Source of the DNA: Melioribacteraceae bacterium
GTDB lineage: Bacteria > Bacteroidota > Ignavibacteria > Ignavibacteriales > Melioribacteraceae
Direction of reading: 5' to 3'
DNA: 64,000 nucleotides
Assembly: GCA_016927595.1 (NCBI GenBank)
Contig: JAFGMI010000012.1
Location: forward strand, 62,001-126,000
This document shows positions 15,950-26,752 of the stretch, in pieces. The notes under the pieces are model-generated. The model was not told the DNA's origin. It saw nothing but the letters and a program-made list of their open reading frames with translations, and did not search any database. Position 1 is the first letter of the stretch. Every line of letters starts with the position of its first letter. Both the position numbers and the translations under genes were made by a program.

Positions 15950-16932
15950 ACAATATTGATCCGTATAAGATTTATTCAAAGCAAAAGAGTATTATAGAAA
16001 AAAGACTTTTCGGTTTACTGAAGGGTAGTAAACCTGATTCGTTATATGAACCTTGCAGATATATACTGCATAGCGGTGGTAAAAGAGTTCGCGCACTGCT
16101 GATTTTACTCAGCGTTAAGGCTGCGGGAGCTCAATATTCAAAAGGTTACAATGCGGCAGTGGCAGTTGAAATACTTCATAACTTTACACTTGTTCATGAT
16201 GATATAATGGATAATGCCGATAAAAGACGTGGCATGCCGACTCTGCATAAAAAATATGATATAAGTACGGCAATTCTCGCGGGCGATAATCTAATTGCTG
16301 TTGCATACATGAACCTTCTGAAAGATGCCGGACCATATGCAGGAAATATTGTTAAGTCTTTTACTAAAGGTATTATTGAAGTTTGCGAAGGTCAGAGCCT
16401 TGATAAAGAGTTCGAACTCAGGAATAATGTTACACTGCAAGAATATCTTATTATGATAAAGAAAAAGACTGCTGCATTGGCTGAAATGTGCTGTTTAATC
16501 GGCGGTCAGATCGGTGGCGGTACAAACAAGCATTTGAGAATGCTTAAAACTTTTGGTAGAAATCTCGGGATTGCGTTCCAGCTGCAGGATGATCTGCTTG
16601 ATATAACAGGAGATGAAACAGAGTTCGGGAAAGTTGTTGGCGGCGATCTGATAGAGGGCAAGAAAACTTATCTCTTTTTAAAAGCTCTTGAGATAGCTGC
16701 AGGTAATAATAAAACAATGCTGCTTGAGGTAATCAAGAAGAATGGTATCAGGAAAAATCAGGTCGGAAAGTATAAAGAATTATACAATAAACTCGATATT
16801 ATAAAATTAACAAAGCAGGAAGTCTTCAGGTATACTCAGAAAGCGGTAAGCGCTGCCCGAAAGATTGAGGATGATGAGGCTCGGCACATGATGATATGGC
16901 TTGCAGAATCACTTGTGGAACGCAGTAAATAA
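15946..16932 (+). CDS. Polyprenyl synthetase (trans-isoprenyl diphosphate synthase)
   Basis: A 328-residue all-helical prenyltransferase that condenses IPP onto an allylic diphosphate. The first aspartate-rich motif is DDIMD (85-89) in LVHDDIMDNADKRRG, and the second is DDLLD in QLQDDLLDITGDE. The G-G-K-R basic site for IPP (44-47) is present. The first motif lacks the two-residue insertion of bacterial type II farnesyl synthases, which suits a geranylgeranyl or longer-chain product, but chain length cannot be fixed from sequence. The start is TTG within the fni stop (TTGA overlap), preceded by AGAGGAA. The last base of its stop is the first base of the HPr gene. Confidence 0.9.
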   Translation: MNNIDPYKIYSKQKSIIEKRLFGLLKGSKPDSLYEPCRYILHSGGKRVRALLILLSVKAAGAQYSKGYNAAVAVEILHNFTLVHDDIMDNADKRRGMPTLHKKYDISTAILAGDNLIAVAYMNLLKDAGPYAGNIVKSFTKGIIEVCEGQSLDKEFELRNNVTLQEYLIMIKKKTAALAEMCCLIGGQIGGGTNKHLRMLKTFGRNLGIAFQLQDDLLDITGDETEFGKVVGGDLIEGKKTYLFLKALEIAAGNNKTMLLEVIKKNGIRKNQVGKYKELYNKLDIIKLTKQEVFRYTQKAVSAARKIEDDEARHMMIWLAESLVERSK

Positions 16933-17198
16933 TGATTGAAGAAAAAGTAAAAATTATAAATAATGCCGGTCTGCATACAAGACCTGCTGCCACTATCGTA
17001 AAAATTGCTGCGAAGTATAAATCGGATTTTTTTATCAACAAGGACGGCATGGAGATAAACGGGAAAAGTATAATAGGAGTAATGACACTTGCTGCAGCCA
17101 AAGGTTCTGCACTTTCATTAAGATTTGACGGTGAGGATGAAGAAGAACAGAGCAAAGAAATTCTGGACTATTTTAAAAGAGGATTTGACGAGTTATAA
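16932..17198 (+). CDS. ptsH: Phosphocarrier protein HPr
   Basis: An 88-residue HPr. The histidine phosphorylated by Enzyme I is exactly His15 in AGLHTRPA, and the regulatory serine is exactly Ser46 in NGKSIIGVM, the site used by HPr kinase/phosphorylase. An hprK gene is present at 61472-62479 in this window. The start codon overlaps the polyprenyl synthase stop by one base and ptsI follows after two bases. No PTS permease (EIIB/EIIC) is nearby. The intact Ser46 argues for a signalling role rather than only sugar uptake. Confidence 0.97.
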   Translation: MIEEKVKIINNAGLHTRPAATIVKIAAKYKSDFFINKDGMEINGKSIIGVMTLAAAKGSALSLRFDGEDEEEQSKEILDYFKRGFDEL

Positions 17199-17200
17199 GA

Positions 17201-18958
17201 ATGAAAAAATCTGAGGATAATATTATAAGGGGAATCGCCGCTGCCCCCGGAATTACCATTGCCAAAGCGTTTCTTTACTCCAAAGAAACTGAATCCATCA
17301 CTGTTGAGGATATAAGCGATATACATGAGGCTAAATCAAATCTAAGTGAAGCACTTGAAAAATCCAAACATGAACTGAGAAAAATCTTCGAGCTGGCAGT
17401 TGATAAACTTGGAGAAAAAAGAGCGGCGATATTTGATGCACAGATAATGATACTTGAGGATCAGATACTTATTAAAAATCTTTTTGAGAGGATTGAAAAA
17501 GAAAAAAAATCACCTGAGTTCATAGTTCACGATGAGATAACAAAATATCAGAATATTATGAATGCTTCCACCGAGTTTTACATGAAGGAACGTTCACAGG
17601 ATATTGAAGATATCAAAAACAGAATCATTCGGAACCTCAAGAAAAAAAAGTGGAAATCCAAGATCAGCAACGATGTTATTGTAATAACAGACACGATAAC
17701 TCCCGCTGACACCGTCTTATTTACAAGAGTTAATGTAAAGGGATATGTAACTAATTTCGGCGGTATCACATCGCACGCTGCTATTGTTGCCAGATCGCTT
17801 AACATACCGGCAGTAGTAGGAGCACACGATGCAACAGCTAAGATTGATTCGGACGATCTGATAATTCTTGACGGATATCATGGTGAAGTAATTGTAAATC
17901 CTTCCGAAGTGCAGCTTGATTTTTATAACGATAAAATAAAACAGCTTAACGATCTTGACAGCGAGCTGCTTAAATTAAAAGATGAAAAAGCAGTTACAAC
18001 AGACGGTTTTACTATAAACGTTTTGGCAAACCTTGATGTTGACGCCGAAATTGAGTTTGTTCTTTCTCATGGAGCTGAAGGTATTGGCTTAATCAGAACT
18101 GAACAGCTTTTTAACGTGTTGGAAAATTTTCCCGACGAAGAAACTCAGTATAGAACGTATAAAGGGCTATCGAATAAGTTTTATCCTAAGCAAATTACGA
18201 TAAGAGCGTTTGATATAGGTGGAGATAAAGTGCTTCCGCTTGATGTCAAAGAACCGAATCCGATGCTCGGATGGAGGGGTATAAGATTTCTTCTCGATCA
18301 TGTAAATTTATTCAAAACTCAGATAAGAGCAATTCTCAGAGCTTCGGTTAATAATAACATCAGATTTATGATCCCGATGGTATCATCGCTTACAGAAGTA
18401 AAGAAAACAAAAGCGCTTATTGAAGTATGCAAGCAGGAATTGGCTCAGGAAAATAAAAAATACTCGGCTTTCGTTGACTTCGGTATAATGGTAGAAGTAC
18501 CGTCTGCAACTCTGCTATTGAGAGAATTCGGAAGGGAAGTGTCGTTTTTCAGTATTGGAACAAACGATCTGATCCAATATCTGCTTGCTGTCGACAGAGG
18601 GAACGATATAATCAGTGATTCGTATGATGAGTTTCATCCGGCGGTAATAAGAGCACTGGAATATATTATGCATCAGGCGAAAGCTACAAATACCCACGTT
18701 AATATTTGCGGTGAGATGGCATCTGACCATTATGCCGTTCCGATTATTGTCGGTCTTGGCTTCAATTCGATAAGCATAAATGCTTCTTCAATTCCTTACA
18801 TAAAAAAAATAATCAGGAGTTTTTCGTACAAGGAATGCAGAGAACTGCTTAAAGAATGTCTGAAATTAGAGACTGAGGAAGAGATTAAATCCAAGATAAA
18901 ATCTTTTTATAACACGCGGCTTAAAGAAGACATCGATGAAATTTTCAAATCGGAATAA
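17201..18958 (+). CDS. ptsI: PTS Enzyme I (phosphoenolpyruvate–protein phosphotransferase)
   Basis: A 585-residue Enzyme I of typical length. The phospho-histidine is His192 in GGITSHAAIVARS. The PEP-binding barrel has IRTEQLFN, a GWRGIRF block, and the active-site cysteine in NICGEMASD near residue 500. It phosphorylates HPr at His15 using PEP. It directly follows ptsH, and with fni and the polyprenyl synthase forms a tight operon with overlaps or gaps of at most two bases. Without visible EII components in the window, its phosphate flux may serve regulation. Confidence 0.96.
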   Translation: MKKSEDNIIRGIAAAPGITIAKAFLYSKETESITVEDISDIHEAKSNLSEALEKSKHELRKIFELAVDKLGEKRAAIFDAQIMILEDQILIKNLFERIEKEKKSPEFIVHDEITKYQNIMNASTEFYMKERSQDIEDIKNRIIRNLKKKKWKSKISNDVIVITDTITPADTVLFTRVNVKGYVTNFGGITSHAAIVARSLNIPAVVGAHDATAKIDSDDLIILDGYHGEVIVNPSEVQLDFYNDKIKQLNDLDSELLKLKDEKAVTTDGFTINVLANLDVDAEIEFVLSHGAEGIGLIRTEQLFNVLENFPDEETQYRTYKGLSNKFYPKQITIRAFDIGGDKVLPLDVKEPNPMLGWRGIRFLLDHVNLFKTQIRAILRASVNNNIRFMIPMVSSLTEVKKTKALIEVCKQELAQENKKYSAFVDFGIMVEVPSATLLLREFGREVSFFSIGTNDLIQYLLAVDRGNDIISDSYDEFHPAVIRALEYIMHQAKATNTHVNICGEMASDHYAVPIIVGLGFNSISINASSIPYIKKIIRSFSYKECRELLKECLKLETEEEIKSKIKSFYNTRLKEDIDEIFKSE

Positions 18959-19033: not shown

Positions 19034-21862
19034 ATGGTTCTTCTTTTGCATTCTTTTCTTAAAAAATATGTACTATTAATTTTCGTGCTCCCTACAGTGC
19101 TTAATGCACAATTTTATTTCTTTGGCAGGAATAAAATTCAATACGAAGATTTTGAATGGAAAGTTCTGAAAACCGAACACTTCGATATCTATTACTATAA
19201 TGATTTTGAAGAGATGGCTGAAATCGGCGCATCTTATGCAGAAAAAGCTTTTGAAGAGTATAAACAAAAATTCAACTATATAGTAACCTACCGTATCCCG
19301 CTGATCTTTTATAATACTCATTTACATTTTCAGCAGACCAATACCAGACCCGGTTTTATTCCGGAAGGAGTAGGCGGATTTTTTGAATTTTTAAAAGGTA
19401 GGGTGGTTATCCCTTTTCTCGGTTCGCTTAAAAGTTTTGAGCATGTAATCAGGCATGAACTTGTACACGTATTTACAATCACTAAACTGATGAACAGCTA
19501 TTCATCTCATAGAGTGGCTATGGAAACCTATCCACCACTTTGGTTTATTGAAGGACTTGCTGAATATTGGTCTACTCAATGGGATTCGCAGGGAGAAATG
19601 GTAATGAGAGACGCTGTTCTGAATGGTATTTATAATAATTTGTACGATATGCAGAAAGTACACGGAACGTTTATTATGTACAAGGCTGGACAGAAGTTTC
19701 TTGAGTTTGTTTCGGAAGAATACGGGGAAAATAAAATTCTGCACCTTCTGGATAATGATTGGCGGTTCAAAAAATTTAATGATTTAATGGAATTTGTTTT
19801 CGGAGATAATATCGAAAACATTAATAGCAAGTTCGAATATTTCCTTAAAAAGAATTACTATCCTTTGTATCTGGATCACGTTCCCCACAAACTTAACAGC
19901 ATTAAATTAACGGAATTCGGATTCAATTTTTCTCCCGGATTTTATGATGATGGGAAAAGCAGGTCCGTTTATTTTATCGGTAACCATGATGGCTACTCCT
20001 CTTTGTACAGATTGGCACTTGATTCAACTTTTAATCCTATTGATGAACCAGAACTTGTAATAAGAGGGGAGAAGGAAGCAATATATGAATCCTTCCATTT
20101 GTTGAAACCTTCGCTTGCTGTTTCCTCAAAAGGTATTCTGGCATTTATTACAAAATCTGGAGCGAACGATAAAATTCATTTTTATTCCATTGAACAACAG
20201 GAATTAGTCAAGAGGTTTTCGAATGAGGAAATCATATCTATCCAGGACCCTGACTTTTCAAGTGACGGTACGCTGCTGATATTTACTGGAATCGACTGGA
20301 AAGGATACAATGATTTATACAGCTATAATTTGCATACAAATGAGTTGTCAAGACTAACAAATGATTATTATTCTGAATCTTCACCCAGGTTCAATAATGA
20401 TGATTCAAAAATTTATTTTATATCCGACAGAACTGAAGGTATTTACAAACAAACAAACAATATTTTTGAATTTGATTTAACGACCTATCAGATCAAGTAT
20501 CAGACATATCTGGATTCTGATATTAAAACTCTGTCAGTGAATAAATTTACTGATGAGTTGTTTTTTACATCAGATTATGACGGGATAGAGAAAATATGGA
20601 AACTTGTATTTGATAAAAACGAAGTACCGGCTGGCATGTTAAATATTACCAGTAACCTGACGACAATTTTTGATTTCATTTTTGTTGATTCGGATAAGAT
20701 AATAACCTCAGCCATAGAGGAATTTTCATTTCAGTTTTATTTAAATGAAGTAAATGAAATTGAAGATTCTGCTGAAACTTATGTAACATTCGAATTCGAC
20801 ATTAAAGGCAGACCGTGGGAACCCGATAAAATTGTTATTACTTCCGAAAAAGACCGGTATGAATACGGCAAGGAATATACACTTGATTATGCGGTAAGTC
20901 AGGTTACAACCGATCCTGTTTTTGGAACCAGAGGCGGTGCGTTGCTTACACTCAGCGATCTTCTGGGTGATGACAGGTACCTCTTCCTTATATATAACAC
21001 CGCTGAAATAAAGGATGAAATCTTAAAAAACTTCAATGTGGCAATTAGCAGGGTCAATACGAAATTCCGGACAAATTACGGGTATGGAGTATTCCACTTT
21101 AACGGGAGAAGATACGATATCAGAGAATCCGAACAATACTTTTATGAACGAAGTTTCGGAGGTTATCTGAGCGTGGTATATCCTTTTTCACAATTCCAAA
21201 GAATTGAATCGAGTGTTGTGGTTACAAATTCTGATAAAGAATTATTTTCCGATATCCTTCGCAGGAAAGCTCTGCTCATAACGAATACAATGTCGTTTGT
21301 TCATGATAATTCGATCTGGGGACCTACGGGACCTCTTGACGGCTCAAGATTCAAATTACTGCTTGCTTATACAAGTGATGTTAAATACAGCAACGTTAAT
21401 TATTACTCTTTCATCGCTGATTACAGAAATTACTTCAGATTAAGTTATAGAAGTGCACTTGCATTTCGGGTATCGCTGTTTTATAATCATGGCAAGGAAG
21501 CCCGGAGATATTTTGCAGGCGGCAGCTGGGACCTGAGAGGATGGAGGAGATTTTCGATACGAGGCGAAAAAATGTGGCTTTCTTCAATTGAGTACCGTTT
21601 TCCATTAATCGACCAGTTTTATATGAAGCTTCCTTTCCTCTCTCTCGGATTTGCTAATATCAGAGGCGCTGCATTTGTTGATGCAGGATCTGCGTGGGAT
21701 GAAGAATACAACGATACAATCGGCAGTGTGGGTGTGGGTTTTAGAATAAATTTCCTGAACGCATTGACTCTTCGTTATGATATCGGGAAAAAAATAAAAA
21801 ATAATTTCAGTGATATACAAGAAGGAATGTTTTCTCAGTTCTTTTTTGGTTGGGATTTTTAA
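19034..21862 (+). CDS. Gluzincin peptidase – TolB-like propeller – Omp85 (BamA-like) barrel fusion
   Basis: A 942-residue exported protein with a signal peptide (about 1-25, cleaved near LNAQ). Residues about 35-285 resemble peptidase MA/M1-type gluzincins: the zinc motif HELVH is at 141-145 and a Glu-rich WFIEGLAEYWS follows at 170-180, supplying the third ligand (Glu173 or Glu177). Residues about 290-600 have TolB/WD40-like repeats such as DPDFSSDGTLLIF and SSPRFNNDDSKIYFISD. Residues about 640-942 form a beta-barrel like the Omp85/D15 C-terminus, with FAGGSWDLRGWRR corresponding to the conserved RGF/RGW loop and a final strand ending in F-F-F-G-W-D-F. This suggests an outer-membrane protein carrying a periplasmic protease and a propeller. 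It heads an operon with a propeller lipoprotein and a PEGA-like protein. Function unknown; OM protein processing or transport is inferred. Confidence 0.75.
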   Translation: MVLLLHSFLKKYVLLIFVLPTVLNAQFYFFGRNKIQYEDFEWKVLKTEHFDIYYYNDFEEMAEIGASYAEKAFEEYKQKFNYIVTYRIPLIFYNTHLHFQQTNTRPGFIPEGVGGFFEFLKGRVVIPFLGSLKSFEHVIRHELVHVFTITKLMNSYSSHRVAMETYPPLWFIEGLAEYWSTQWDSQGEMVMRDAVLNGIYNNLYDMQKVHGTFIMYKAGQKFLEFVSEEYGENKILHLLDNDWRFKKFNDLMEFVFGDNIENINSKFEYFLKKNYYPLYLDHVPHKLNSIKLTEFGFNFSPGFYDDGKSRSVYFIGNHDGYSSLYRLALDSTFNPIDEPELVIRGEKEAIYESFHLLKPSLAVSSKGILAFITKSGANDKIHFYSIEQQELVKRFSNEEIISIQDPDFSSDGTLLIFTGIDWKGYNDLYSYNLHTNELSRLTNDYYSESSPRFNNDDSKIYFISDRTEGIYKQTNNIFEFDLTTYQIKYQTYLDSDIKTLSVNKFTDELFFTSDYDGIEKIWKLVFDKNEVPAGMLNITSNLTTIFDFIFVDSDKIITSAIEEFSFQFYLNEVNEIEDSAETYVTFEFDIKGRPWEPDKIVITSEKDRYEYGKEYTLDYAVSQVTTDPVFGTRGGALLTLSDLLGDDRYLFLIYNTAEIKDEILKNFNVAISRVNTKFRTNYGYGVFHFNGRRYDIRESEQYFYERSFGGYLSVVYPFSQFQRIESSVVVTNSDKELFSDILRRKALLITNTMSFVHDNSIWGPTGPLDGSRFKLLLAYTSDVKYSNVNYYSFIADYRNYFRLSYRSALAFRVSLFYNHGKEARRYFAGGSWDLRGWRRFSIRGEKMWLSSIEYRFPLIDQFYMKLPFLSLGFANIRGAAFVDAGSAWDEEYNDTIGSVGVGFRINFLNALTLRYDIGKKIKNNFSDIQEGMFSQFFFGWDF

Positions 21863-23004
21863 TGAAGAATTATCTGCTGCATCTTTTATTATTTATTTTG
21901 TTCCTTTCATGCGGGAAACCGATCATAATAAAATTTAATGGTGAAAGGAAAGAGGAAGTAGTTACCTATAGCAGTTTTTTAGACGGAAAAAGATTTTTTA
22001 TAGATAAATCAATATCGCCGGATTTTGAGGACTGGATTGTCTACGAAACAAGCGGGAGTTTTTCAAATTCTTCTATTATTAAATATGACAAAGCGTTATT
22101 TTCCGGGGATTTATCCGGCAATATTTATTATTTCAGTGATTCTTCAGACAGCAGGAGAGGTGTACTGAAGCATAAAGGTTCGATTGAAATATCACCTGTT
22201 ATAATTAAAGGACAATTAATCTTTGCCGTTAATGAATTCAATCAAAAATATTCGACAATATATTTTTACAGCATTGGAACGGGAAAATATTTAAAAGAAA
22301 TTAAGTTATACGATAATCTGCAGAATGAATTTGCAGTTTTGGACGATTCTTTTTTTGTTCTTACACAAAATGGACTCCTGATCAAATATGGTTCTTCAGG
22401 AAAAAAGGAATGGCAGCTGGAATTAGATGCTGAGGTATATTCCGATCCGATAATTAACGATGGAAAACTGTTTATTCTTACTTCTGATGGTTTTCTTAAA
22501 ATAATAAGCGGCGGAAAGGGTAATCTCATCAAATCGCTTAAATTGTCTGAATCGTTTGAATCTGCTCCATATGTCTGTAAAAGTTATATTGTTGCATGCG
22601 ATACATATGGAAATGTTTTTAAATATGATTATAACGGCGAACAGTTGCATTGGGAAAGTCATATTGGTTCAAAAATTTTAGCTGAACCGGTTGGAAATAA
22701 CAGCAGGGAAATATTCATTGCTGATTTGTCTGGAAAACTCACTAAACTTAGCGGGGACGACGGCAGGATAGTATGGCAGTATAATTCTTCAGGCATCTTA
22801 AATACTGCTCCGCTAGTTTTTAATAACTTAATAATTCAGACTGATCAAAACAAAAAGGTACATCTGATTGATCTGAACGGGAATTCAGTAAAGATCATTT
22901 CGTTTCCCGGAAGGATAAAAATGAAACCTGCTTTTATAGATGGGGTTTTATTTATCGGAGGAGATGACGGGCTGATATATTCATATAAGGTAAATCCATT
23001 GTGA
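21862..23004 (+). CDS. PQQ-type beta-propeller lipoprotein (BamB-like)
   Basis: A 380-residue protein beginning at ATG 21862, which shares one base with the preceding stop (TAATG). The signal sequence ends LFLSC with Cys17 as the probable lipidated residue. The rest consists of repeated blade-like units of the PQQ/quinoprotein propeller type, for example IVWQYNSSGILNTAPLV and LHWESHIGSKILAEPVG, in which a Trp strand is followed by a separate, pairwise pattern. BamB is a lipoprotein of the same fold that assists the BamA barrel. The location directly behind an Omp85-like barrel is therefore suggestive, but the fold alone does not prove the role. A secreted quinoprotein enzyme is unlikely because no catalytic cluster is seen. 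Confidence 0.7.
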   Translation: MKNYLLHLLLFILFLSCGKPIIIKFNGERKEEVVTYSSFLDGKRFFIDKSISPDFEDWIVYETSGSFSNSSIIKYDKALFSGDLSGNIYYFSDSSDSRRGVLKHKGSIEISPVIIKGQLIFAVNEFNQKYSTIYFYSIGTGKYLKEIKLYDNLQNEFAVLDDSFFVLTQNGLLIKYGSSGKKEWQLELDAEVYSDPIINDGKLFILTSDGFLKIISGGKGNLIKSLKLSESFESAPYVCKSYIVACDTYGNVFKYDYNGEQLHWESHIGSKILAEPVGNNSREIFIADLSGKLTKLSGDDGRIVWQYNSSGILNTAPLVFNNLIIQTDQNKKVHLIDLNGNSVKIISFPGRIKMKPAFIDGVLFIGGDDGLIYSYKVNPL

Positions 23005-23732
23005 GACACTGCAGATACATACTGCTTTTATTTATTTTAATTGTCGAGAATATTGTCGCTCAGAACCTCTATAACCTAGTGGTAACTACTAATAGAGCTG
23101 AATCGTCAATTTATATCGATAATGAATTATGCGGATCAGGCAGTTGCATAATATCGGTTTTAGAAGGGACTTATCTGATCACGGTAATAGAGAATCATCT
23201 GATATGGAATGCTCAGACGATTATTGATACAATTAAAATTAGCGATGCAGGGCACAATGTTGTTAAAGAATACCATTTCAAAAACAAAGTCAGACTTACT
23301 ACAAATCCGTTTGATGCCTCAGTTTATTTTAACAATAAGTTTTTTGCATATACGCCGTGCCTAGTACCACGGGGGATTAAATTGATAGATATTAAAAAAG
23401 AGAATTACAGATATCAGTCAAAAAATTTAGAAAATACAGGAAATATTGTTGATATTGATTTAACTCCGCTTGAAAAAATAAAAAATAAAGATGATTCATT
23501 TATAAGTTCCGGATGGTTCCCTGTACTTTTGGGGACTGCCTGTGCGCTGGGTGCCGCTGCTGCCTATTACAAACTTGAAGCGGATAAAAATTTTGATAAG
23601 TATTATAAGACTAATAACCGGAATTTATTGGAAAAAGTTGATAAGTATGATATGTACAGCGGAGTAGCTTTTGGCTTATTGCAAATAAATTTCGGATATT
23701 TGGCGTATAAATTTCTATTTGATAGCCAGTAA
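23001..23732 (+). CDS. Exported PEGA-domain-like protein with C-terminal hydrophobic helices
   Basis: A 243-residue protein starting with GTG in the stop of the previous gene (GTGA). A signal peptide ends at about residue 21 (IVAQ). Two PEGA-like beta units follow: one with SSIYIDNELCGSG near 35-47, and one with ASVYFNNKFFAYTP near 105-118, each with the pattern of a small loop presented on a strand followed by a G-x-Y/I-x-I segment. The C-terminal part has hydrophobic stretches (VLLGTACALGAAAAYY and GVAFGLLQINFGYLAYKF) that could be membrane helices flanking a charged loop. PEGA domains are found in envelope proteins, but the function here is unknown. It closes the three-gene envelope operon. 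Confidence 0.6.
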   Translation: MRHCRYILLLFILIVENIVAQNLYNLVVTTNRAESSIYIDNELCGSGSCIISVLEGTYLITVIENHLIWNAQTIIDTIKISDAGHNVVKEYHFKNKVRLTTNPFDASVYFNNKFFAYTPCLVPRGIKLIDIKKENYRYQSKNLENTGNIVDIDLTPLEKIKNKDDSFISSGWFPVLLGTACALGAAAAYYKLEADKNFDKYYKTNNRNLLEKVDKYDMYSGVAFGLLQINFGYLAYKFLFDSQ

Positions 23733-23792: not shown

Positions 23793-23854
23793 TTGAAATT
23801 GACGTTAAGAAGAGTTTAATTAAAATTAATTATAAAAAACATTTGGAGAACAAA

Positions 23855-26752
23855 ATGAAAAGATTTCTTTCGTTTTTAATACTTCTATCATTTGTGGGGA
23901 ATTCATATTCTCAGATTTCAATGACACTCGGGGATGTGACAAGTACCTCTGGTGCAAATATTAGCGTGCCATTAAATGTTGAAAATTTTAATAATATTGG
24001 TTCCATATCTTTGAAGATTACATTCACTCCAGGTGTAATCAGCTATGTGGAGCTTCAGAACAGTCAATTCCAACCTATTGCTCTGAGTCACAATTCGAGT
24101 TCTGTTTCTATAGGATGGTTTAGTTTATCACCATTGAATGCAGGTACAGGAAAATTAATGGATATTATATTTCACTATAATGGCGGCACATCCGATATTG
24201 TATTTGATGCTGCCTGTCAAATAGCTGATGGTATCGGTGCAACATTAAATGTAACTTACAATAATGGTTCGATATCAGAAGGACAAGGCGGAGGTATTGG
24301 GACACCATTGCTTCAATCTCCTTCTAATGGTTCAGCAGATATTTCCCTGACTCCGACACTTGATTGGTCTGATGTTACAGGTGCTGATGAATACGAATTA
24401 CAATTATCAACCAGCGATGTGTTTTTTGATACCATCATTGACTTAACTGGAATCACTTCATCCGGATATACAATCGGGTCTTCAGTTCTTGAAAACTCTA
24501 TGGAGTATTATTGGCGCGTAAGGGCAATGGATGATTCTCAAACTGGAGACTGGAGTTCTGTTTTTAGTTTTACAACTGAAAGCGGAACGATTCCAACCGG
24601 TATTTCAATTACGATTGGAAATATCACTGCATCCCCAAATACACGAGTTACTGTCCCAATAAATGTTACAGATTTTAATGACATCGGTTCTATTACATTG
24701 AAAATAGGTTTTGATACAAGCAAAGTTACTTTTGTAGGAATAGAAAACGCTGCTGCTACCGGTTTTCAAGCTCTTTTTTCGGGGAATAATCTTAGTATAG
24801 GCTGGTTTAGTTTATCGCCTCTGAATTTGGGGAATGGCAAATTATTAGATCTCGTTTTTGATTATACAGAAAGTAATGTTCCGGTTAACTTTTTAAGTGG
24901 TACTGAAATTACGAATAGTTCTAACCAGATATTAAATACAACCTTAACCTCTGGCGTAATAACTGAAGGAGAACCGCTGCCTTTAGTTCCAACACTTAAT
25001 TTACCAGCTGATGATTCTGTTGGAGTAAGTTTAACTCCCACACTGGGCTGGGCAATAACAGCAAATGCTGTGAGCTACTCAGTTCAACTTTCTGCAGACA
25101 GTAATTTTGTTAGCACTATAATTGACCAAGAAGGAATTACAGCAATTACTCTTGCTGTTTCTTCAGATTTGTTAAATTATAATACCAAATATTTTTGGCG
25201 AGTAAAAGCAACAAATACAATGGGATCGAGTAACTGGAGTGAAGTCTGGAGTTTTAGAACATTGCTTGAACCATTATCAGCACCTATTCTCGCTTCACCT
25301 ACAAACGATGCTGTCGGTATAAGTATCAATCCCACACTAATATGGAATAGTGTAAATGGAGCAACGAGTTACAATATTCAATTATCTGTATCAAGTGAAT
25401 TCTCAGATTTGATTATTAATGAATCCCAGGTAACCACCATTGAATATGAAGTTACAGGATCGTTGCTGAGTCATTCGACAAAATATTTTTGGCGCGTAAG
25501 TGCAAACGGAGCTCCCGGTACAAGTGCATATAGTGAGATATGGAATTTCACCACAATATTGACAACTCCAACACATGTATCACCAGCTGATGAAACTGAA
25601 GATGTTTCACTGACACCGTCTTTAGACTGGAACGATGTAGCATCAGCAACATCTTATAGAATTCAGATATCGCTTCCTCCAGACTTTTCAGAATTATCTA
25701 TAGACCAATCTGATCTTTCAGTTTCGACATACACTGTTTTATCTGGAGTTCTTCAGGAAAACACAACTTATTATTGGAGAGTTAAAGCATCGGCGAATGA
25801 AAATTCAAGCAGCTGGAGCGATGCCTGGTCTTTTACCACCATGCTGGTTCCACTGGATACCCCGACCCTTGTTTCTCCGGTAAACAATACATTAGATATT
25901 GATCCGGAAGCAGTTACACTTGATTGGAATGATGTTACTGATGCAGTTAGTTATACATTAAATGTTTCTACAGATGCAGGTTTTACTAATAATATTATTT
26001 CTCAAGCATCAATTTCAGGTTCATCTTATAGTATTGCATCGGGAGTACTCAATTATGAACAAGATTATTTCTGGAGGGTGAAAGCGGTAGGAAACGGCAA
26101 AGAAAGTGGCTGGTCTGGCTCTTTTAAATTCACTACTTTAATTCAGCCTCTGCAGGCGCCAGCATTAATTGCTCCTGCTGACGGTGTTTCGAATTTAATT
26201 TTAACTCCTACTCTCGATTGGAGTAACGTTGCAACCGCAACAAGCTACGGACTACAAGTAGCAAGCGATTCTGATTTTAACAATAAAGTAATTGACGCAA
26301 CAAGTTTAGGTGAATCTCAATATGCAATATTGGCAGGAACACTTACCGGTTCCACAACTTATTACTGGCGTGTGAATGCTGCCAGGGAAGGTGAAACTTC
26401 GGATTGGAGTGTCGTAAGATCTTTTACTACTGAACCTCCTACTGGTGTTACTACATTTATGAGCGGAATTCCAGAATCTTACACCTTGTTCCAGAATTAT
26501 CCGAATCCGTTCAATCCGAATACTAAAATACGATATGCATTACCCGAAGCTTCTGAAGTATCAATAAAGATTGTTGATATGTTAGGCAGGGAAGTAAGTG
26601 ATTTGTTCAATGGTTTTCAGTCAGCTGGTTTTTATGAGTTAAACTGGAACCCTGTAAGCATATCTAGCGGTACATATATCTACAGAATTAATGTAAAATC
26701 TGAATCAGGCAAAGAATTTTCGGATTTCAAGAAAATGATATTCATGAAGTAA
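23855..26752 (+). CDS. Secreted cohesin-like/fibronectin type III multidomain protein with T9SS sorting tail
   Basis: A 965-residue exported protein. ATG 23855 is preferred over TTG 23843 because GGAG (23845-23848) lies six bases upstream of it. After a signal peptide (about 1-22), the order is a cohesin-like domain (about 25-145), FnIII unit 1 (150-243), a second cohesin-like domain (247-372) and FnIII units 2-6 (about 376-860). The C-terminal sorting domain (about 871-965) has YPNPFNPNT, then MLGREV and a final Lys. The two cohesin-like domains share an identical SIGWFSLSPLN stretch, showing recent duplication. Each FnIII unit has TPTLDWxxV and YYWRVxA motifs. It should be secreted by the type IX system and held at the cell surface. 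No catalytic domain is visible; adhesion or scaffold use is inferred. A promoter and a terminator flank it, so it is monocistronic. Confidence 0.85.
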   Translation: MKRFLSFLILLSFVGNSYSQISMTLGDVTSTSGANISVPLNVENFNNIGSISLKITFTPGVISYVELQNSQFQPIALSHNSSSVSIGWFSLSPLNAGTGKLMDIIFHYNGGTSDIVFDAACQIADGIGATLNVTYNNGSISEGQGGGIGTPLLQSPSNGSADISLTPTLDWSDVTGADEYELQLSTSDVFFDTIIDLTGITSSGYTIGSSVLENSMEYYWRVRAMDDSQTGDWSSVFSFTTESGTIPTGISITIGNITASPNTRVTVPINVTDFNDIGSITLKIGFDTSKVTFVGIENAAATGFQALFSGNNLSIGWFSLSPLNLGNGKLLDLVFDYTESNVPVNFLSGTEITNSSNQILNTTLTSGVITEGEPLPLVPTLNLPADDSVGVSLTPTLGWAITANAVSYSVQLSADSNFVSTIIDQEGITAITLAVSSDLLNYNTKYFWRVKATNTMGSSNWSEVWSFRTLLEPLSAPILASPTNDAVGISINPTLIWNSVNGATSYNIQLSVSSEFSDLIINESQVTTIEYEVTGSLLSHSTKYFWRVSANGAPGTSAYSEIWNFTTILTTPTHVSPADETEDVSLTPSLDWNDVASATSYRIQISLPPDFSELSIDQSDLSVSTYTVLSGVLQENTTYYWRVKASANENSSSWSDAWSFTTMLVPLDTPTLVSPVNNTLDIDPEAVTLDWNDVTDAVSYTLNVSTDAGFTNNIISQASISGSSYSIASGVLNYEQDYFWRVKAVGNGKESGWSGSFKFTTLIQPLQAPALIAPADGVSNLILTPTLDWSNVATATSYGLQVASDSDFNNKVIDATSLGESQYAILAGTLTGSTTYYWRVNAAREGETSDWSVVRSFTTEPPTGVTTFMSGIPESYTLFQNYPNPFNPNTKIRYALPEASEVSIKIVDMLGREVSDLFNGFQSAGFYELNWNPVSISSGTYIYRINVKSESGKEFSDFKKMIFMK
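24985..26436 (+). repeat. Five tandem FnIII-like protein repeats (about 95 codons each)
   Basis: Units start near 24985, 25281, 25566, 25856 and 26157. Each has the sequence order P-x-L-x-x-P-x-x, T-P-T/S-L-D-W-x-x-V, S-Y-x-x-Q-x-S and Y-F/Y-W-R-V. A sixth, related unit (24304-24587) is separated from them by the second cohesin-like domain. Similarity is clear at the protein level but the DNA has diverged, so the copies are old. Confidence 0.8.

Follow-up and report, generated by a model that had tools for sequence, protein, structure and literature searches.

We analysed a stretch of 64,000 nucleotides (nt) from a Melioribacteraceae bacterium (assembly GCA_016927595.1, contig JAFGMI010000012.1, forward strand, positions 62,001-126,000), referred to below as the window. 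One of its open reading frames (ORFs), ORF1, encodes a 942 amino acid (aa) protein that combines in a single chain an N-terminal gluzincin-type zinc peptidase, predicted to be active, a TolB-like propeller and a C-terminal Omp85 barrel. ORF1 heads a conserved operon with ORF2, which encodes a PQQ-propeller lipoprotein, and ORF3, which encodes a PEGA-like protein. Sequences, profiles and a predicted fold support the three domains, the catalytic residues, the gene order, the contexts of the paralogs and the presence of a distinct BamA with POTRA domains encoded by this genome. We tentatively read ORF1 as an accessory station for assembly or export at the outer membrane, which carries a periplasmic protease and works alongside BamA.

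Domains of the ORF1 protein

The features of the operon are as follows, with domain boundaries in ORF1 approximate.

ORF1: 19034-21862, + strand, 942 aa, peptidase, propeller and barrel in a single chain
ORF1 N-terminus: hydrophobic, putative signal peptide
Gluzincin-type peptidase: ORF1 residues ~26-290
TolB-like propeller: ORF1 residues ~300-560
Omp85 barrel: ORF1 residues ~605-942, no POTRA family matched
HELVH zinc motif: 19454-19468, + strand, ORF1 residues 141-145
E173: 19550-19552, + strand, proposed third zinc ligand, in WFxEGLAEY (EGLAEY from residue 173)
LRGW: 21533-21544, + strand, ORF1 residues 834-837, motif of the Omp85 loop-6 type
ORF2: 21862-23004, + strand, 380 aa, PQQ/BamB-like propeller lipoprotein, lipobox Cys17 after FLS
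ORF3: 23001-23732, + strand, 243 aa, two PEGA-type stretches, GTG start

Relatives of ORF1 were searched for at the protein level in 296 genomes of the phylum Bacteroidota, drawn evenly from a larger group; the genome-level search was confined to this phylum, apart from a contig scan with a single query sequence, which yielded two loci. Matches to the family occur in 199 of the 296 genomes. A score gap separates genomes with close orthologs, whose best match reaches at least 418 bits, from those with longer paralogs only, at about 260 bits or less. By our own count of rows, 70 genomes contain a close ortholog, including the genome of the window, which holds three family members: ORF1, a protein of 1074 aa (contig C24) and a protein of 1033 aa (contig C29). 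A maximum likelihood tree of 100 proteins (quick method, with support from the Shimodaira-Hasegawa-like approximate likelihood ratio test, SH-aLRT) resolves three groups, A (the type of the window), B and C, on branches with 99, 100 and 100% support. Clade A comprises 58 rows and L092, clade B 20 and clade C 21 proteins. Alignment A1 contains the 58 clade A proteins, and alignment A2 the 20 clade B proteins together with L092, which the tree places in clade A. The single-protein Pfam scan covered 48 of the 58 A1 proteins, the window included, with ten of the closest relatives left out.

Taken alone, ORF1 matches the Pfam family Peptidase_MA_2 with 23.0 bits, below the cut-off of 32.4, and we therefore tested its relatives. 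The family is matched by all 48 clade A proteins scanned singly (E<=0.01) and by 21 of the 21 A2 proteins. An HExxH motif with a downstream glutamate is present in 100 of 100 aligned proteins, that of the window included. All 100 proteins share residues H141, E142, H145, W170, E173, G174, A176 and Y216, across three clades in which the peptidase segments fall to 21% identity to ORF1. E177, on the other hand, is replaced by Gln in every one of the 21 clade C proteins, which makes E177 an unlikely third zinc ligand of the ORF1 peptidase and E173 the likely one.

The fold of the segment was modelled from three sequences (the window, L005 and L006) over residues 26-300, with a mean predicted local distance difference test (pLDDT) score of 70.2 and a predicted TM-score (pTM) of 0.74. 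By name, the 50 VIA-align matches listed for this model are gluzincins only, with identities of 11-19% and Z scores of 11.7-15.0, on a scale where mostly helical models may reach values near 14 by a common arrangement. The best of them aligns over 239 residues at 3.5 A (Z 15.0). The best matches listed per family are Z 15.0 for M30, up to 14.5 for M9 and up to 12.8 for M1, and these are the families expected from the zinc motif of ORF1. Foldseek returned no match to the model at E<=0.001 (best 3.2e-3); the same families head its list, in which alone M61 also appears. A profile of 28 peptidase segments reached the collagenase ColG with an E value of 0.0084. Both the sequences and the model lead us to conclude that the N-terminal segment is a gluzincin-type zinc peptidase, with predicted activity.

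The propeller and the barrel are recognised in ORF1 itself, with 23.2 bits for PD40 (cut-off 20.9) and 51.7 bits for Omp85 (PF01103, cut-off 24). Among the clade A proteins scanned singly, PD40 is matched by 46/48 and Omp85 by 39/48 (E<=0.01), so that the union of peptidase, propeller and barrel read from the sequence in the initial annotation is borne out by Pfam profiles across the clade. A clade A profile matches solved TolB with an E value of 1.1e-17. A profile of the barrel alone matches solved BamA chains (3.3e-5) and 9ccg, a POTRA/Omp85 protein (7.5e-6), together over residues ~698-930, and in an Omp85 search of its own genome ORF1 covers positions 36-322 of the 325 in the model. Comparison of the barrel profile with one BamA sequence by hhalign gave a probability of 33% (E 4.6e-4) against 0.3% for PorV as a control, a result that is suggestive only. 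R835 of the LRGW motif is present in all 58 A1 rows, and clade A shows strong conservation of LRG and of many further positions in the barrel. The corresponding motif of the paralogs is mostly LRG(Y/F) in clade B and mostly MKG(Y) in clade C. Structure prediction, which agreed with the expected gluzincin fold in the peptidase segment, gave a poor model of the full-length protein (three sequences, pLDDT 43.3), with ~15-16 strands at residues 636-940 and pLDDT under 50 over most of them. The C-terminal Omp85 barrel is for this reason identified from sequence profiles.

No POTRA family was matched in ORF1, nor among the 20 families (E<=0.01) found in the 48 clade A members scanned. The same Pfam library finds four POTRA stretches in a BamA encoded elsewhere in the genome. 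Because the genome also codes for this POTRA-bearing BamA, ORF1 is not the core assembly protein.

The operon and the paralogous clades

The three genes are tightly packed: the stop codon of ORF1 (21860-21862) and the ATG of ORF2 (21862) have one base in common, and the GTG of ORF3 (23001) overlaps the stop codon of ORF2. The identities proposed for the two partners in the initial annotation, a PQQ-propeller lipoprotein sharing one base with ORF1 and then a PEGA-like protein, agree with Pfam scores of 60.6 bits for PQQ_2 in ORF2 (PF13360, cut-off 27.6) and 42.1 bits for PEGA in ORF3 (PF08308, cut-off 20.8). The N-terminus of ORF3 is hydrophobic, and a segment at its C-terminal end is weakly so.

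The description of ORF2 as BamB-like holds for the fold family and fails for orthology. An ORF2 profile matches solved BamB chains with E values down to 4.2e-46, and other PQQ propellers match it better. With 70 bits for the BamB model TIGR03300 against an equivalog cut-off of 285.2, ORF2 as a BamB ortholog was ruled out. We collected 52 ORF2-type rows, the window included, in alignment A3, one of which (L113) comes from a gene that neighbours a clade B gene on the opposite strand. PQQ_2 matches all 52, independently of the profiles used in the operon survey, and all 52 have the lipobox cysteine. Acidic residues at positions C+1 to C+6 number none in 42 rows, one in 10 and two or more in 0, a pattern unlike that of the surface lipoproteins described in PMC12578637. 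The retained lipobox cysteine and the scarcity of acidic residues after it argue for ORF2 being a periplasm-facing lipoprotein.

The operon survey covered 62 clade A loci, comprising the surroundings of 60 of the 69 other orthologs together with L005 and L006, the window not counted; L062, L071 and L081 are included here and are missing from A1 and the tree. All reading frames were searched, with neighbour profiles trained on part of the same loci. An ORF2-type gene lies downstream of ORF1 on the same strand in 59 of the 62 loci, and an ORF3-type gene in 53, with both partners present in 53; three of the nine loci lacking an ORF3-type gene are at contig ends. Of the points on which the initial annotation could have failed, a gluzincin fold and a conserved gene order were found, and no result contradicted the barrel, which structure prediction did not show. 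Polyprenyl synthase, HPr and PtsI genes are often kept upstream of ORF1, as is, in many relatives, a gene of ~345 aa that is phosphoglucose-isomerase-like in both cases scanned.

The paralogs have other neighbours. We fetched 20 loci for each of clades B and C, hand-picked from the matches rather than drawn at random, and found ORF2-type and ORF3-type partners in 0/40. The clade C gene lies behind porV and an M6-like gene dependent on the type IX secretion system (T9SS) in 18/20 loci (the exceptions being L174 and L175) and next to a DUF5683-type gene in 17/20, and the genome of the window is arranged likewise in both respects. Its clade C locus (L126:86-10454, contig C29) reads porU, porV, T9SS M6-like gene, peptidase/propeller/Omp85 paralog, DUF5683. 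Most of the relatives fetched keep this cluster, a possible, so far unrecognised T9SS accessory. Strong clade C matches occur, by our own count of rows, in 87/119 genomes of the class. Upstream of the clade B gene, RNase R is found in 12 of the 20 loci and a TamB-like gene can be recognised in eight, own genome included; the TamB-like call stands at 50 bits, where the equivalog cut-off is 825. In the genome of the window the clade B paralog lies in tight tandem with genes for a TamB-like protein and RNase R (L095:382-10207, contig C24).

PorV was found in 228/296 genomes: in 198 of 199 that match the family and in 30 of 97 that do not, counts that are incomplete and ignore relatedness. The genomes listed as having neither PorV nor a family match all belong to one family (f24). 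We rechecked the 30 PorV-positive genomes without a match, G002 and 19 genomes without PorV using the peptidase profile. The family as a general component of T9SS was rejected, given the 30/228 PorV-positive genomes without a protein-level match and the genome G036, discussed below.

Viral contigs searched contained no relatives of the ORF1 family, and two plasmid records gave matches. On the Salinibacter ruber plasmid pSR116 (L194:4929-6830) a gene annotated 'basic secretory protein-like protein' encodes a peptidase and PD40 propeller relative with no Omp85 match, and is followed by a serine-carboxypeptidase-like gene. In the second record only a 15% stretch was matched, in the barrel part.

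Known systems and possible roles

The combination of a propeller with an Omp85 barrel is already known. Heinz and Lithgow (2014, PMC4104836) describe a non-POTRA subfamily, 'WD40-Omp85', whose N-terminal propeller is most like TolB, and call it reminiscent of a BamA-BamB fusion. ORF1 shares with it the Omp85 barrel, the TolB-like N-terminal propeller and the absence of POTRA, and the ORF1 group is probably identical with this subfamily. The word 'peptidase' is absent from the main text of that paper and no operon partners are given in its WD40-Omp85 section, whereas ORF1 has both a peptidase and a conserved operon. The novelty suggested in the initial annotation does not extend to the propeller-barrel fusion and stands for the peptidase; the peptidase domain, the conserved operon and the two paralogous clades with their own contexts are what is new here. 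In the literature searched, which covered few subscription papers, we did not find a description of the peptidase domain, the ORF1-ORF2-ORF3 operon or the porU-porV-linked paralog.

Several other systems share parts of this arrangement. A 'Metallo' Omp85 subfamily has been named Omp85-metalloproteases on the basis of PF00149 (PMC4104836). The domain in ORF1 is, in contrast, a gluzincin. PF00149 is presumably the calcineurin-like metallophosphoesterase family. The patatin-Omp85 protein PlpD carries, like ORF1, an enzyme domain N-terminal to an Omp85 barrel, and that of PlpD is described as periplasmic (PMC11116518). It differs from ORF1 in the patatin type of the enzyme and in the presence of a POTRA domain. 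To our knowledge, PlpD has no propeller and no BamB-like partner gene. The pair of ORF1 and ORF2 resembles BamA and BamB of the E. coli BAM complex in uniting an Omp85 barrel with a PQQ-propeller lipoprotein, and departs from it in lacking POTRA, in the added peptidase and in the distance of ORF2 from the BamB equivalog cut-off. We know of no fusion to an Omp85 barrel among the matched gluzincins. Those of M9, M30, M1 and M61 share with the ORF1 peptidase the HExxH motif, the downstream glutamate and the predicted fold, while for M9, M30 and M1 identity is limited to 11-19% among the matches listed. BepA (M48) is, as proposed for ORF1, a zinc protease tied to outer-membrane protein assembly, and E. 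coli BepA, YcaL and LoiP have all been linked to outer-membrane protein biogenesis (PMC13067283); unlike the ORF1 peptidase, BepA is a separate protein of another peptidase family.

In the assembly or export station that we tentatively favour, the Omp85 barrel of ORF1 would be seated in the outer membrane, with the TolB-like propeller and the active zinc peptidase hanging into the periplasm, where BamA has its POTRA domains. From the periplasm the ORF2 lipoprotein would attach as a scaffold resembling BamB, with ORF3 as an additional partner in the envelope. The clients would be proteins of the outer membrane or proteins for export: the barrel would handle them and the peptidase would cleave them, serving either their maturation or the removal of stalled molecules. 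We infer here catalytic activity, a periplasmic side, a physical complex, a client and a coupling of cutting to assembly. The strongest contextual support for such a role is the location of the paralogs beside porV and behind RNase R and TamB-like genes. The Omp85 proteins studied before PlpD are reported all to promote outer-membrane protein assembly or protein translocation (PMC11116518). The arrangement suggests that these bacteria couple protein cutting to the building or exporting of surface proteins; a conserved protease in place of POTRA would, if real, tie proteolysis directly to assembly or translocation. A wider version, possible and at present doubtful, is that Bacteroidota possess three ancient sister proteins, each dedicated to one outer-membrane route with built-in client cleavage: one to T9SS with PorU and PorV, one to a TamB-like bridge and one to a BamB-like lipoprotein and a PEGA protein. 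The BAM and T9SS machineries of this phylum are under active study, and for the class searched the clade C paralog can be put forward as a testable candidate to partner PorU and PorV. Whether this phylum has BamB has been called unclear (PMC12578637), and ORF2 supplies it with a BamB-like lipoprotein.

A number of observations weigh against the proposed station and its link to envelope assembly. The paralogs have diverged in their barrels, since a match to Pfam Omp85 is seen in only 4/21 A2 proteins (mostly clade B), and the clade C protein of the window's genome misses it in the protein scan and reaches 27.4 bits in the genome search. PEGA is matched by only 23/47 ORF3-type proteins, a type held together by its own profile, and ORF3 shows no apparent relationship to DUF5683, the clade C partner, homology between them being rejected at an hhalign probability of 3%. 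Recognisable partners are missing at L068-L070, and an ORF3-type gene at L065-L067. The conserved upstream neighbours (PtsI, HPr, polyprenyl synthase and the phosphoglucose-isomerase-sized gene) are not envelope-assembly genes, and part of the ORF1 neighbourhood may be simple synteny. Among the 30 PorV-positive genomes without a protein-level match, only four gave weak or interrupted matches to the peptidase profile, and G036, one of the 19 rechecked genomes without PorV and itself without a protein-level match, matched that profile at 2.4e-9.

The chief alternative, which we consider unlikely, is a quality-control protease whose barrel is mainly an anchor and whose gluzincin domain degrades misfolded outer-membrane proteins as BepA does. 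It would explain the conserved active-site residues and is in line with the E. coli proteases BepA, YcaL and LoiP (PMC13067283); the barrel-less peptidase-propeller relative on the Salinibacter plasmid shows that the soluble portion can occur by itself. PlpD, whose enzyme domain is periplasmic on its barrel (PMC11116518), supports the topology of the quality-control protease and of the assembly or export station alike. What separates the two is the conservation of LRG and many other barrel residues in clade A, which exceeds what an anchor seems to need, and the presence of the same two partners beside the gene in most loci, both speaking against an anchored quality-control protease.

A lipid or polymer transport device of the TAM kind, in which the peptidase would be regulatory, is improbable. 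The idea draws on clade B, found behind RNase R (12/20) and near a TamB-like gene (8/20, on a call of 50 bits against 825), yet RNase R lies between the two clade B genes, which speaks against a simple two-part pump, and the window contains no TamB-sized ORF, its longest being 969 aa.

We regard as very improbable a dead, structural peptidase module, which would leave ORF1 merely a BamA-BamB-like fusion as proposed for WD40-Omp85. Such a module would fit the main text of Heinz and Lithgow, which describes the group without a protease (PMC4104836), and the score of ORF1 itself, below the Peptidase_MA_2 cut-off, but H141, E142, H145, E173 and Y216 are kept in 100/100 proteins of clades down to ~21% identical. 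Equally improbable is a surface-exposed or nutrient peptidase placed outside by the barrel to digest external protein: M9 collagenases and the M30 lugdulysin are among the closest folds listed, but PlpD, the enzyme-Omp85 fusion that has been studied, keeps its enzyme domain in the periplasm (PMC11116518), and the paralog neighbourhoods hold secretion and TamB-like genes.

Neighbouring genes in the window

Genes for HPr and PtsI, enzyme I of the phosphotransferase system (PTS), adjoin at 16932-18958 of the window and are kept upstream of ORF1 in many relatives. The HPr gene (16932-17198) matches the PTS-HPr profile with 89 bits. On the other side, at 23843-26752, a gene adjoining the operon encodes a protein of 969 aa that contains cohesin-like domains, a number of fn3-like repeats and a sorting tail for T9SS; in most of the relatives listed this place is held by other genes.

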